From the NCBI GenBank assembly GCA_017437095.1, contig JAFSBW010000005.1:1-54019 (forward strand): DNA of 54,019 nucleotides, read 5' to 3'. Shown one piece after another: positions 7,969 through 50,687 of this stretch. The notes beneath the pieces were generated by a model, which was not told the DNA's origin, searched no databases, and saw nothing but the letters and a program-made list of their open reading frames with translations. The position numbers and the translations under genes are program-made. This DNA is from Oscillospiraceae bacterium (GTDB taxonomy: Bacteria > Bacillota > Clostridia > Oscillospirales > Oscillospiraceae). How positions within the stretch are numbered: position 1 is the stretch's first letter; each line of letters starts with the position of its first letter.

Positions 7969-8056
7969 GCGCAAGTGGTGGAATTGGTAGACTCGCTAGA
8001 TTCAGGTTCTAGTGCTCATTCCGGGCATGCGGGTTCAAGTCCCGCCTTGCGCACCA
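7969..8056 (+). tRNA. tRNA-Leu(CAG)
   Basis: 88 nt with encoded CCA. Acceptor stem GCGCAAG/CTTGCGC, long variable arm (GCTCATTCCGGGC), T-loop TTCAAGT. Anticodon stem CTAGA/TCTAG with loop TTCAGGT gives anticodon CAG, reading CTG leucine codons. It has its own promoter and a strong terminator; an inverted copy of its T-arm sits beyond that terminator (8106-8117). Confidence 0.96.
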
Positions 8057-8105: not shown

Positions 8106-8117
8106 GGCGGGACTTGA
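8106..8117 (-). repeat. Inverted partial copy of tRNA-Leu(CAG) T-arm
   Basis: GGCGGGACTTGA here is the exact reverse complement of TCAAGTCCCGCC at 8035-8046 inside the tRNA. The two copies stand nearly equidistant from the terminator stem (17 nt left, 20 nt right), so the terminator is the centre of a decayed larger palindrome. See the matching cases at tRNA-Ser(GCT) and tRNA-Leu(GAG). Confidence 0.7.
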
Positions 8118-11933: not shown

Positions 11934-12026
11934 GGAGTGATACCCAAGAGGCCGAAGGGGCTCCCCTGCTAAGGGAGTAGGCGGTCAAAAAGCCGCGCGA
12001 GGGTTCAAATCCCTCTCACTCCGCCA
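11934..12026 (+). tRNA. tRNA-Ser(GCT)
   Basis: 93 nt with encoded CCA. Acceptor GGAGTGA/TCACTCC, anticodon stem CTCCC/GGGAG with loop CTGCTAA (anticodon GCT, codons AGC/AGU), long class II variable arm, T-loop TTCAAAT. It is immediately followed by a terminator. An inverted copy (12069-12082) and a direct copy (12172-12190) of its 3' part lie downstream. Confidence 0.96.
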
Positions 12027-12063
12027 AAAAGAAGACCCATCCACCAGGATGGGTCTTCTTTTT
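12027..12063. terminator. Terminator of tRNA-Ser(GCT)
   Basis: Stem AAGAAGACCCATCC (12029-12042) / GGATGGGTCTTCTT (12047-12060) with ACCA loop; A-run before and T-run after make it bidirectional. Confidence 0.93.
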
Positions 12064-12068
12064 GCCTT

Positions 12069-12190
12069 GAGAGGGATTTGAATAATCCAAATGCAACAGT
12101 CCGGGGGACTGTTGCGCGCGACGGCTCGACGCAGCGGAACCTCAATTTTCGCCTAAAGGCGAAAATGTAAACAAATCCCTCTCACTCCGC
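12069..12190. repeat. Structured intergenic element bounded by tRNA-Ser 3'-end copies
   Basis: The left end GAGAGGGATTTGAA (12069-12082) is the exact reverse complement of tRNA positions 12004-12017. The right end (12172-12190) is an exact 19-nt direct copy of tRNA positions 12006-12024, covering T-arm to acceptor. The ends pair with each other over 12 bp (12069-12080 with 12172-12183). They enclose two perfect hairpins: GCAACAGTCC/GGACTGTTGC (12093-12115) and ATTTTCGCC/GGCGAAAAT (12145-12166). No open reading frame fits. It resembles a MITE, a decayed attachment site pair, or a structured RNA. Confidence 0.7.
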
Positions 12191-48856: not shown

Positions 48857-49869
48857 ATATATTGGCAGTAGAATCCTCCTGCGATGAAACCGCGGTTGCC
48901 ATCGTCCGGGATGGCAGGCAGGTTTTAACAGACCAGATCGCATCCCAGGTAGATCTGCACCGCATTTACGGCGGCGTTGTGCCGGAGATCGCTTCGAGAA
49001 TGCATATTGAAGCCATCTACGGCCTGGCAGACCAGGCGCTGGAAGCTGCCGGGCTGAGCCGCAAGGACATTGATGCCATTGCGGTTACCTATGCCCCGGG
49101 TCTTATCGGCGCGGTGCTGGTGGGGGTAAACTTTGCCAAGGCTGCGGCCATGGCTATGGATAAGCCCCTGATCCCGGTGCATCACATCCGGGGGCATATC
49201 GCTGCCAACTATATCGCCTACCCGGAGCTAAAGCCCCCTTTCCTGTGTCTGGTAGTTTCCGGCGGGCATACTATGCTGGTGGATGTGCAGGACTATACCA
49301 AAATGCGCATTTTGGGTACAACATTGGACGATGCCGCCGGAGAATCCTTTGATAAGGTAGCGCGCGTGCTGGGTATGCCGTACCCCGGCGGCGCTGCACT
49401 GGACAAGGCCGCCCAAAACGGCGACCCTGCTAAGTATAATCTGCCCCGCTCCAAGCCCGGCGCGAACCCCTACGATATGAGCTTTTCCGGCCTGAAGACA
49501 GCGGCGCTGAACCTGATTCACCACGCCGAGCAGGTAGGGGAGCAGCTGGACATTCCCAGCCTTTGCGCCAGCTTTGCCGCGGCGGTTTCCGATACCTTAG
49601 TGCCCCGGGTAGTTGCTGCGTTGAAGGAAACGGGCTACCGCAAGGTAGCTGTAGCCGGCGGTGTAGCCGCCAACTCCATCATCCGCCGGGATGTTCTGGC
49701 GGCGGCGGAAAAGCTGGGGGCGCAGGTCTATTTGCCGCCCCTGAGCCTTTGCGGCGACAATGCCGCCATGATCGGCGCCCAGGGCTATTATGAATACCTG
49801 GCGGGAAACATTGCGGACATGAGCCTGAATGCCTACGCGACCAAGTCCATCCTGGGCGAGGCGCTGTAA
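48853..49869 (+). CDS. tsaD: tRNA t6A37 threonylcarbamoyltransferase
   Basis: 338 aa. VESSCDETAVAIV at the start, then the metal-ligand motif HHIRGH (H111, H115) and GGHTMLVDV, GESFDKVARVLGMPYPGG, and the late GGVAANSIIR. It forms N6-threonylcarbamoyladenosine at A37 of ANN-decoding tRNAs; its partners tsaB, tsaC and tsaE are not in this window. The start overlaps the rimI stop by 4 bp. Confidence 0.96.
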   Translation: MNILAVESSCDETAVAIVRDGRQVLTDQIASQVDLHRIYGGVVPEIASRMHIEAIYGLADQALEAAGLSRKDIDAIAVTYAPGLIGAVLVGVNFAKAAAMAMDKPLIPVHHIRGHIAANYIAYPELKPPFLCLVVSGGHTMLVDVQDYTKMRILGTTLDDAAGESFDKVARVLGMPYPGGAALDKAAQNGDPAKYNLPRSKPGANPYDMSFSGLKTAALNLIHHAEQVGEQLDIPSLCASFAAAVSDTLVPRVVAALKETGYRKVAVAGGVAANSIIRRDVLAAAEKLGAQVYLPPLSLCGDNAAMIGAQGYYEYLAGNIADMSLNAYATKSILGEAL

Positions 49870-49885
49870 AAAGCGGAGAAAAAGT

Positions 49886-50371
49886 ATGCTGTTGATTGCG
49901 GATCAGATCTCCAAGCTGAGCTTTTCCGGCCTTATGCAGGTGTATGCCGAGAGTAACGCGCTGAACGCCGGGGAGCAGGAATGCTCTTTGCTGGATATTG
50001 AGCAAGGGTTTTATGATTACCTGCGCAGTTCGTTCTTTGCCCAGGAAAACAGCTTTTACGCTGTGTGGCTGGAAGCAGGGGAGTATGTAAGCGCTTTGCG
50101 TATGGAGCCTTTTAAGGACGGGTTTTTGCTCTGCACGCTGGAAACTGCCCCGCAGCACCGGCGCAAGGGCTATGCTGAAAAGCTGATAAAAGCTGTTTTG
50201 GCGCTGGAAAAGCTTGCCGGGAAAACGGTATATTCCCATATCCATAAGAAAAACAGAGCTTCCCAGGCGGTACACGCTGCCTGCGGGTTTGTTAAAATTA
50301 TGGATAGGGCTTTGTACCTTGACGGCTCGGCCAATAGCTACTGCGATACCTGGAAATTGGAAAGAGAATAA
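49886..50371 (+). CDS. GNAT acetyltransferase
   Basis: 161 aa. ETAPQHRRKGYAEKLIKAVLALEKLAGKTVYSHIHKKNRASQAVHAACGF is the acetyl-CoA core (RRKGYA), residues ~90-140. The N-terminal third is divergent. The substrate is unknown. GGAG lies 7 bases before ATG 49886; a longer frame from 49829 would overlap the end of tsaD out of frame. It follows tsaD by 16 bp, so is probably the last gene of the cysS-polA-rimI-tsaD unit. Confidence 0.8.
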   Translation: MLLIADQISKLSFSGLMQVYAESNALNAGEQECSLLDIEQGFYDYLRSSFFAQENSFYAVWLEAGEYVSALRMEPFKDGFLLCTLETAPQHRRKGYAEKLIKAVLALEKLAGKTVYSHIHKKNRASQAVHAACGFVKIMDRALYLDGSANSYCDTWKLERE

Positions 50372-50376
50372 AAAAC

Positions 50377-50495
50377 GCTGGGGTCGTGCCAATGGATACG
50401 ATCCCAGCAATTATATTAAATTGGACAGTAGAAGTCGACATGGAACATATTCCAAAATCAATCCACATCCATACTGGATGCGTCTTGATTTTGGA
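50377..50495. other. Hairpin-rich intergenic region after the GNAT gene
   Basis: Three possible structures with no open frame of note: GCTGGGGTCGT/ACGATCCCAGC (50378-50408, one mismatch), TGGAA-CATA-TTCCA (~50441-50454), and CCAAAATCAA/TTGATTTTGG (~50453-50494) enclosing CATCC/GGATG. The first may terminate the upstream operon. The rest suggest a structured RNA or decayed repeats. Confidence 0.5.
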
Positions 50496-50513
50496 GGACT
50501 CTCCCACGGCCTA

Positions 50514-50536
50514 AAAACATGCCACCGGCATGTTTT
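50514..50536 (+). terminator. Intrinsic terminator hairpin
   Basis: Perfect stem AAAACATGCC (50514-50523) / GGCATGTTTT (50527-50536), ACC loop, CTTA after it. Confidence 0.75.
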
Positions 50537-50547
50537 CTTAACGGCCT

Positions 50548-50626
50548 TTCGAGTCCCATCTCTCGCACCAAAAAATCCCCCGCCCAAAGGGCAGGGGATT
50601 TTTTGGTGCGAGAGATGGGACTCGAA
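50548..50626. repeat. 79-nt near-perfect palindrome: terminator flanked by inverted tRNA-Leu 3' ends
   Basis: 33-nt arms 50548-50580 and 50594-50626 are exact reverse complements; inside is one mismatch, then GCCC/GGGC and an AAA loop. The right arm is the terminator plus the 3' end of tRNA-Leu(GAG); the left arm is an inverted duplicate of it (TTCGAGTCCCATCTC... to CGCACCA). Central T-run serves as terminator on both strands. Confidence 0.95.
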
Positions 50627-50687
50627 CCCACACGGCGGTTGCCACACGCACCTCAAACGTGATTGTCTACCATTCCAACACTCTCGC
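50604..50687 (-). tRNA. tRNA-Leu(GAG)
   Basis: 84 nt with encoded CCA, minus strand. Acceptor GCGAGAG/CTCTCGC, anticodon stem CACGT/GCGTG with loop TTGAGGT (anticodon GAG, reading CUC/CUU), class II variable arm, T-loop TTCGAGT. Its 3' end is one arm of the 79-nt palindrome that also contains its terminator. Confidence 0.95.

Follow-up and report, generated by a model that had tools for sequence, protein, structure and literature searches.

A gene-less structured cassette between a tRNA gene and a displaced copy of its 3' end in Clostridia

A 79-nt palindrome at the 3' end of a tRNA-Leu(GAG) gene forms the left portion of a structured cassette without genes, flanked on one side by the intact tRNA and on the other by a displaced, incomplete copy of that tRNA's 3' end. 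The window (the whole stretch of DNA analysed, 54,019 nt of contig JAFSBW010000005.1 from an Oscillospiraceae bacterium) contains a second such element and the trace of a third, and related elements, each carrying the inverted 3' end of its own host gene, recur across Clostridia. They appear to form an undescribed family of tiny non-coding inserts adjoining tRNA genes. Regarding their mobility and mechanism, which we infer, we favour, at a probability of about 50%, a non-autonomous cassette inserted in the T-loop of the tRNA gene, with an attC-like hairpin whose end stem consists of the host tRNA's own sequence.

The palindrome and related elements in the window

An inverted-repeat search returned two 38-nt arms (50548-50585 and 50589-50626), 97% complementary with one mismatch and a 3-nt loop, and a direct scan with loops of 3 to 59 nt detected perfect arms of 33 nt (50548-50580 and 50594-50626). 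No other perfect inverted repeat of the window is as long, the next ones being of 18 nt (in the tRNA-Ser(GCT) arrangement, 12025-12064) and 15 nt. Chance was ruled out as the source of this single palindrome, as perfect arms reached a maximum of 11 nt in 20 mono-nucleotide shuffles of the surrounding 700-base region. Both searches recovered the 79-nt palindrome with 33-nt exact arms described in an earlier, sequence-only reading; the single mismatch reported there exists, but sits in the terminator stem and not inside the 33-nt arms. The right arm consists of the last 23 nt of tRNA-Leu(GAG) (T54 to A76) and 10 nt of terminator, the tRNA being called by ARAGORN at 50604..50687 on the minus strand, with CCA encoded and a match to RF00005. 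The left arm belongs to no tRNA, as that reading had stated: it is an inverted copy, exact over the 23 nt from T54 to A76 (50548..50570, plus strand; sequence, repeat search and tRNA calls), and extends through the A-tract and terminator. The terminator hairpin (50571..50603, minus strand; −24.6 kcal/mol) has symmetrical A-tract and T-tract flanks and could serve both strands. As RNA, the hairpin formed by tRNA 54-76, terminator and inverted copy (50548..50626) has a predicted energy of −77.1 kcal/mol, against −27.4 for the tRNA and −24.6 for the terminator, and the predicted minimum-energy fold of the whole stretch abolishes the tRNA-Leu(GAG) structure; at equilibrium the modelled hairpin would wreck the tRNA fold in a read-through transcript. 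An assembly artefact is unlikely, since the same arrangement is present in independent assemblies, including that of the isolate Pseudoflavonifractor sp. MSJ-30 (L097, L120), in which tRNA-His and tRNA-Leu(TAA) bear elements. Sub-threshold scores for several eukaryotic miRNA families of Rfam on 50548-50626 stem only from its being a long perfect hairpin.

The suggestion that the structure goes beyond an ordinary terminator was borne out, the palindrome being the left part of a larger, recurrent element. Overlooked at the time were the region 50451-50558, with its core, partial direct T-arm copy and second hairpin, the tRNA-Ser(GCT) element, the tRNA-Leu(CAG) trace and the recurrence. On the tRNA strand, the order is the tRNA to its CCA, a terminator, the inverted copy of its own 3' end (T54-A76), a folded core and, at the far side of the core, a direct copy of 6 to 20 nt which restarts at approximately position 57. 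In the tRNA-Leu(GAG) element, all on the minus strand, the type A core (50496..50558; alignment fold and covariance model R1) comprises P1, a GAAA/GTGGGA internal loop, P2 (GGCC) and the P3 hairpin AAAACATGCC-GGT-GGCATGTTTTT (50513..50536; sequence and consensus fold). It reads AGGCCGTTAAGAAAACATGCCGGTGGCATGTTTTTAGGCCGTGGGA, followed by GAGTCC (50496..50501; sequence comparison), the direct copy of tRNA positions 57-62, which forms the 3' strand of P1 and of which 6 of 20 nt are left, and then by P4 (50451..50495; repeat search and consensus fold), a long hairpin with an internal loop found in the type A elements of this genus. A convergent GNAT-like ORF (49829-50371) lies beside the element.

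Behind tRNA-Ser(GCT) (11934..12026, plus strand; ARAGORN), a type B element at 12027..12190 on the same strand consists of a terminator, an inverted T-arm to ~12082, a core with a ACAGTCCGGGGGACTGT hairpin and a direct copy of 18/20 nt (12173-12190, plus strand; sequence comparison). tRNA-Leu(CAG) (7969..8056, plus strand; ARAGORN) is followed by a 12-nt inverted trace of its 3' end (8106..8117, minus strand; plus-strand GGCGGGACTTGA; sequence comparison), probably a decayed element, and at the fourth tRNA of the window, tRNA-Ser(TGA), we looked for an element and found none.

Recurrence, match to the host tRNA and fold

A locus search in 60 genomes, including that of the window, found the same arrangement at Leu, Pro, Glu, Val, Arg, His and Ser tRNAs, with the respective tRNA inverted in each case. 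The type A pattern occurred in 72 stretches from records titled Clostridia-type bacteria, Bacillota bacterium or uncultured bacterium; in these and the window, a regular expression yielded 47 instances, 32 standing 45 to 349 nt behind a tRNA and 15 without an upstream tRNA, some of the latter at contig ends or in displaced arrays. Built on 34 type A sequences, covariance model R1 had matches in 38 of 61 genomes of the genus (9 of its 19 high-quality ones), and in 19 of 295 genomes and 14 of 148 genera of the order, where matches outside the genus were weak (best E 3.2e-7). The absence of an inverted copy from close relatives had been named as evidence against a special role for the palindrome; relatives do carry one, though not all of them. 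In the R1-match loci of the order, elements stand behind Ser, Ala, Leu, Tyr, Phe, Gly, Arg, Asp and Met tRNAs and tmRNA, and an apparent tRNA-Sec (our own reading, without an ARAGORN call) also bears one. A broader model, R2, served for detection only; misalignment at the right ends of the elements limited it to the P3 pairs. At class level it had matches in 35 of 391 genomes and in 25 of 223 genera, and a strict test confirmed an inverted T-arm behind a tRNA or tmRNA in 18 of 30 class-level loci (L180-L209). In a phylum-wide draw, R2 matched 2 of 398 genomes, both from the order of the window. Matched hosts span more than fifteen tRNA anticodon types and tmRNA, and whole units are arrayed in tandem at genes for tmRNA and for Leu, Ala, Ser, Pro, Glu, Tyr and Arg tRNAs.

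The match between element and host was counted as a 9-mer complementary to the tRNA's own T54-62, located 15-130 nt downstream of the gene, in two genomes: that of the window (G000) and one from another family of the order (G103), picked for its 12 model matches. In G000, 10 of 40 usable tRNA genes (45 in total) carry their own 9-mer, compared with an average of 0.017 in shuffles, and two carry that of another type; in G103, 13 of 40 usable genes (41 in total, tmRNA included) were positive, where 0.007 were expected by shuffling, and none carried another type. The raw G000 count was 11, from which tRNA-Ala(CGC) in L254 was removed as a convergent tRNA pair, and nothing was removed from G103. 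L254 (G000:C84:17600-18258) contains two whole tRNA-Ala(CGC) genes, tail to tail with one terminator at a contig end, whose copies differ by at least one base near the T-arm, and represents either a real convergent pair or a contig-end fold-back. A stricter test which also demanded the P3 hairpin was too narrow for G103 (2/40) and was replaced by the 9-mer test (13/40). In a larger locus set, unscreened for convergent tRNAs, the own 9-mer was present at 77 of 152 tRNAs, a proportion biased by the fetching of these loci for their elements, and a foreign 9-mer at 12 of 152; these 12 mostly reflect the element belonging to the following tRNA or variants differing by one base, with few exceptions, e.g. 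a tRNA-Pro in L144.

The consensus fold of the 34 type A sequences (RNAalifold) comprises 39 pairs, 20 of them with compensatory changes, and its covariation score of 0.440 compares with 0.142 when shuffled and 0.017-0.071 when slid; 96.8% of cells are paired under the consensus structure, a figure leaning in favour of structure since the latter was derived from the same alignment. Conserved parts of the core are P2, the P3 hairpin with its CC-GGT-GG loop, and GTGGG. P1, formed in type A by the inverted T-arm and the partial direct copy, is paired in 99.0% of cells and follows the variation of the tRNA T-arm (C-G 22, U-A 10, A-U 2), and P4 shows compensatory changes in 14 of 18 pairs. Of the 34 sequences, 33 fold with lower energy on the tRNA-sense strand, and at one position of P4 a G-U pair is kept in 29 of 34. 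The elements are about 100-250 nt long, with ~41-63 nt between the CCA and the inverted T-arm in most first copies. The inverted acceptor part, unpaired in type A, has its own tRNA as the closer match in 21 of 25 elements, other types being at least as close in 4, and the scored acceptor segment is fully matched in 4 of 25, the rest showing graded decay. In one tRNA-Tyr, the T-loop has TCC in place of TTC and the element GGA in place of GAA, in the internal loop outside the stems, a single sequence case which points to copying from the tRNA over stem pairing alone. Pairing of P1 with the downstream copy could keep the inverted segment off the tRNA, and this may be the reason why P1 is so well kept. 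Several longer elements from more distant Clostridia (L192-L205) share a GGTGCGAAG(A/T)CGGGTACTG...GGTCG(A/G)CAAGCA stretch.

A core of identical 45 nt was found at Leu, Pro and Glu tRNAs, each with a differing, matched T-arm. In a set of 36 elements, partly picked by pattern for this core and with genome labels assigned by us, mean core distance was 0.184 within a tRNA type across genomes (permutation fraction 0.002) and 0.211 within a genome across tRNA types (permutation fraction 0.056); cores are closer within a tRNA type, and much of their descent is therefore vertical or locked to one tRNA. Leu, Pro and Ser elements of a single genome (G078:C1 and G078:C5; L232-L234) share a rarer CC-GGG-GG loop, a sequence hint of core exchange within the genome.

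Boundaries, displaced copies and empty sites

The direct copy restarts at position 57, for example in GTGGGA-GANTCC or GTGGGTA-GANTCC (the last hyphen marking the boundary), and where the preceding base is also C (AAC-GAGTCCC) the start could equally be 56. Across the 70 rows of our boundary table, which represent 64 distinct stretches, the copy measured from 57 spans 16-20 nt in 21 rows and 6-11 nt in 48, with a single copy of 14 nt; those of 16-20 nt reach the CCA or nearly so, and type A elements, including that of the window, retain only 6-9 nt. At tmRNA the copies match at 20/20 (L160) and 18/18 (G103) positions. Cassettes delimited in this way contain tRNA positions 57-76, which complete the tRNA, usually a terminator, the inverted 3' end to T54, which varies in completeness, and the folded core, which adjoins the displaced copy.

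Filled and empty versions of the same site were found. Without an element, the tRNA-Phe/tRNA-Gly spacer measures 6 nt (L156) or 4 nt (L269); its filled versions measure 152 nt (L158) and 124 nt (L175) and consist of an element, a distal copy (19/20 and 20/20, respectively) and 7 nt; a third empty spacer (L238) holds an unrelated 55 nt. An Asp/Phe tRNA pair is likewise filled or empty depending on the genome, and at the tRNA-Leu(GAG) near rsmE the element is present in some genomes and absent in others. In genome G144 (L165, L175), elements lie within a tRNA operon (Val-Asp-element-Phe-element-Gly-Cys) where they are not preceded by any strong terminator hairpin, and to judge from this they should be transcribed.

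Larger insertions were observed near some elements. In L022 (G029:C79, 1604-2740), ~1.1 kb of sequence containing two small ORFs, of 139 and 154 aa, separates tRNA-Leu(GAG) from a terminator that resembles the one directly after this tRNA in genome G016 (L020). The right end of the 1.1 kb, ...CCTATAAAACAACTCGCACCA, is seen again in related genomes and is probably that of a separate integrative element which exploits the tRNA 3' end. In L033/L114 (G028:C68, about 11.2 to 49.8 kb), the end of a tyrosine-recombinase-like ORF lies just before a second tRNA-Leu 3'-end copy, beyond which structured elements are located, as if displaced by a large tRNA insertion; on this contig an NCS2-type permease-like gene (by eye) lies between two elements. 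Two elements without a nearby tRNA flank a 322-aa nucleoside hydrolase-like ORF (by eye) in L225 (G394:C4:87000-92000). We dropped CCTATAAGAACACTCGCACC ends and their adjacent genes as candidate cassette parts, as they look like the ends of separate integrative elements at tRNA 3' ends.

Proposed mechanism and alternatives

Tyrosine integrases use the tRNA T-loop, regenerate the gene and leave a displaced fragment, with tmRNA among their targets, and T-loop attB sites with displaced tDNA fragments are documented in accounts of phage Ms6 and of genomic islands (PMC1762012, PMC4383910). The displaced copies described here bear this tyrosine-integrase signature, which makes insertion between positions 56 and 57 the best reading of the boundary, and an attachment or insertion site fits best among the three origins first proposed for the palindrome; of the others, strand switching explains it only in part and an RNA pairing with the pre-tRNA is kept as a rival. 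In the cassette reading, insertion between positions 56 and 57 would use tyrosine-recombinase chemistry supplied in trans, like that of tRNA-targeting islands. The inverted and direct T-arm copies would fold on the tRNA-sense strand into a hairpin resembling an integron attC site, in which P1 would approximate the R box, GAAA/GTGGGA the central spacer, P2 the L box and P3 the terminal structure. As the end stem of this hairpin would be the host tRNA's own sequence, the tRNA gene would serve as platform and the cassette as donor of a new 3' end. The match would be maintained because only a matching cassette regenerates a working tRNA, and homogenisation of the arms by template switching would assist the match to the local tRNA; growth of arrays through slippage between direct copies is also plausible. 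Plain attP × attB recombination would not yield the same core on differently matched T-arms, and the presence of the same cores with different matched arms therefore implies either core exchange between residents or arm copying from the target. The latter may occur during insertion, given that core types are shared across differently armed tRNAs, though we know of no site-specific element that does so.

With tRNA and tmRNA islands and prophages, as portrayed in PMC4383910 and PMC1762012, the elements share the regenerated tRNA and displaced 3' fragment, the (here putative) T-loop crossover, the use of tmRNA and tandem arrays. The same-orientation 3' fragment that defines islands is present (16-20 nt in 21 of 70 rows; 6 nt at tRNA-Leu(GAG) and 18/20 at tRNA-Ser(GCT) in the window); of three tested features of tRNA-targeted integrative elements, the displaced fragment and empty sites are found and the integrase is missing. 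They differ, however, in length (about 100-250 nt against the 2-200 kb filter given for Islander islands in PMC4383910), in lacking an integrase gene, in their inverted tRNA 3' end, and in a conserved fold with one core type over many tRNA types. A tyrosine integrase of their own is absent, as 100-250 nt leaves no room for one. Integrase profile searches of the genus genomes found no dedicated recombinase; none of the 61 had a match over the cut-off of the integron integrase profile TIGR02249, PF00589 counts in 10 genomes showed no link to the elements, and the assembly of the window (77% complete) contains one sub-threshold PF00589 fragment with a stop, despite at least 10 elements. Reverse transcriptase was rejected as the mover, RVT_1 being present in 5 of 11 element genomes and 4 of 10 without an R1 match, although this comparison group may still contain divergent elements. 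No gene cargo of their own was established, and genes near some elements resemble parts of other insertions.

Integron attC sites, as set out in PMC2727003, consist of an end box, an unpaired spacer, an inner box and a top structure, and their junction falls at the margin of the end box. The elements resemble them in their inverted half-sites that form a hairpin on one strand, the unpaired spacer and the variable top, and resemble integron cassettes in the putative crossover at the end-box edge and in tandem cassettes behind a fixed platform (PMC2727003). In contrast, their end box is the tRNA T-arm and not an R box, the boxes are unlike in sequence, no IntI scored over the cut-off in the genus genomes, neither attI nor gene cargo was seen, and P3 is conserved to a degree exceeding that of the attC terminal structure. 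By analogy, the element may work like an integron cassette without necessarily being one. An integron-like system without an integron, in which tRNA and tmRNA genes would be the platform and gene-less cassettes would be stacked at T-loop position 57 by a recombinase acting in trans, each supplying a new 3' end for the tRNA together with a terminator and a single-strand folded site made from that tRNA, is a tentative and rather unlikely extension.

Alternatively, the elements could be structured RNAs made with the tRNA, by read-through or in an operon, which act on it through the antisense inverted segment; set free, this segment would unfold the tRNA, and its sequestration in P1 would create a switch of maturation or transcript level. 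The strong covariation and conserved unpaired nucleotides, the bias of the structure towards the tRNA-sense strand (fold energy 33/34; P4 G-U 29/34), the hairpin of −77.1 kcal/mol that outweighs the tRNA (−27.4) and terminator (−24.6), the operon elements of G144 and the greater similarity of the inverted acceptor segment to its own tRNA (21/25) are all consistent with such an RNA, and like Rfam families the elements combine strong covariation with conserved loops. We nevertheless regard it as doubtful: a terminator-like hairpin precedes most copies, presence is sporadic (38/61 genus genomes, 9/19 of high quality), an RNA acting in cis or trans needs no direct copy extending to the CCA, and template switching, as described in PMC8794818, is also able to produce compensatory changes. 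Matched arms can arise and persist through such switching at hairpins (PMC8794818, PMC8604942), and quasipalindrome correction homogenises them (PMC7202029, PMC8604942). Were it to act alone, the nascent strand would fold at the terminator hairpin and copy the tRNA 3' end backwards, making and repairing a palindrome which is neither a mobile cassette nor functional. The palindrome of the window, unbroken through terminator, A-tract, CCA and acceptor, and the full acceptor-segment match in 4 of 25 elements, with graded decay in others, agree with this, and strand switching, as first proposed, may account for the near-perfect arms. It leaves unexplained why several Clostridia families have the same core, why the boundary lies near position 57, why there are displaced copies, and why 30 of 40 usable G000 tRNA genes are without a copy. 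The elements thus share homogenised inverted arms around a hairpin with quasipalindrome template-switch mutations (PMC7202029, PMC8794818), to which they add a recurrent conserved core and a boundary; we consider the explanation improbable, the conserved core refuting it as the sole cause, and a contributing role likely.

An ordinary bidirectional terminator between the tRNA and the convergent GNAT-like ORF (49829-50371) would accord with the symmetrical A- and T-tracts, but is hardly credible, as inverted tRNA sequence, core and direct copy are left unexplained. REP/RAYT and other palindromic repeats are small, structured, non-coding and present in many copies, and REP-like repeats moved on single-stranded hairpins by a Y1 (RAYT-type) transposase would resemble the elements in their small conserved hairpins and copy number. 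Of 11 genomes matched by R1 or R2, 7 gave Y1_Tnp matches, against 2 of the same 10 without an R1 match, yet none was found in the element-rich G011 and G078 (both ~97% complete assemblies). The elements match the adjacent tRNA and have their boundary in the T-loop, REP movement to our knowledge yields no tRNA-specific arms, and we consider this origin very improbable. No Rfam family matched the core region at its gathering score, at the window locus or at eight distant loci. Phage records gave no element match at the sensitivity used, and ten matches to a short pattern in viral contigs were dismissed as chance. Among plasmids, queried with the distant relative L197 only, one Fusobacterium record matched over 16% of the query, in its tmRNA 3' end. 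Literature searches found no description of the element, which leaves its absence from the literature unproven.

The elements occur on a quarter of the usable tRNA genes in the genome of the window and on a third in a genome of another family, and correspond to no Rfam family. They rewrite the 3' end of essential genes with gene function retained, and their match to more than 15 tRNA anticodon types and tmRNA makes them an unusual repeat, tuned to each host gene. If they are mobile, recombination of folded single strands would extend beyond integrons and tRNA genes would be a general cassette platform; if they act as RNA, they would constitute a new layer of tRNA control.
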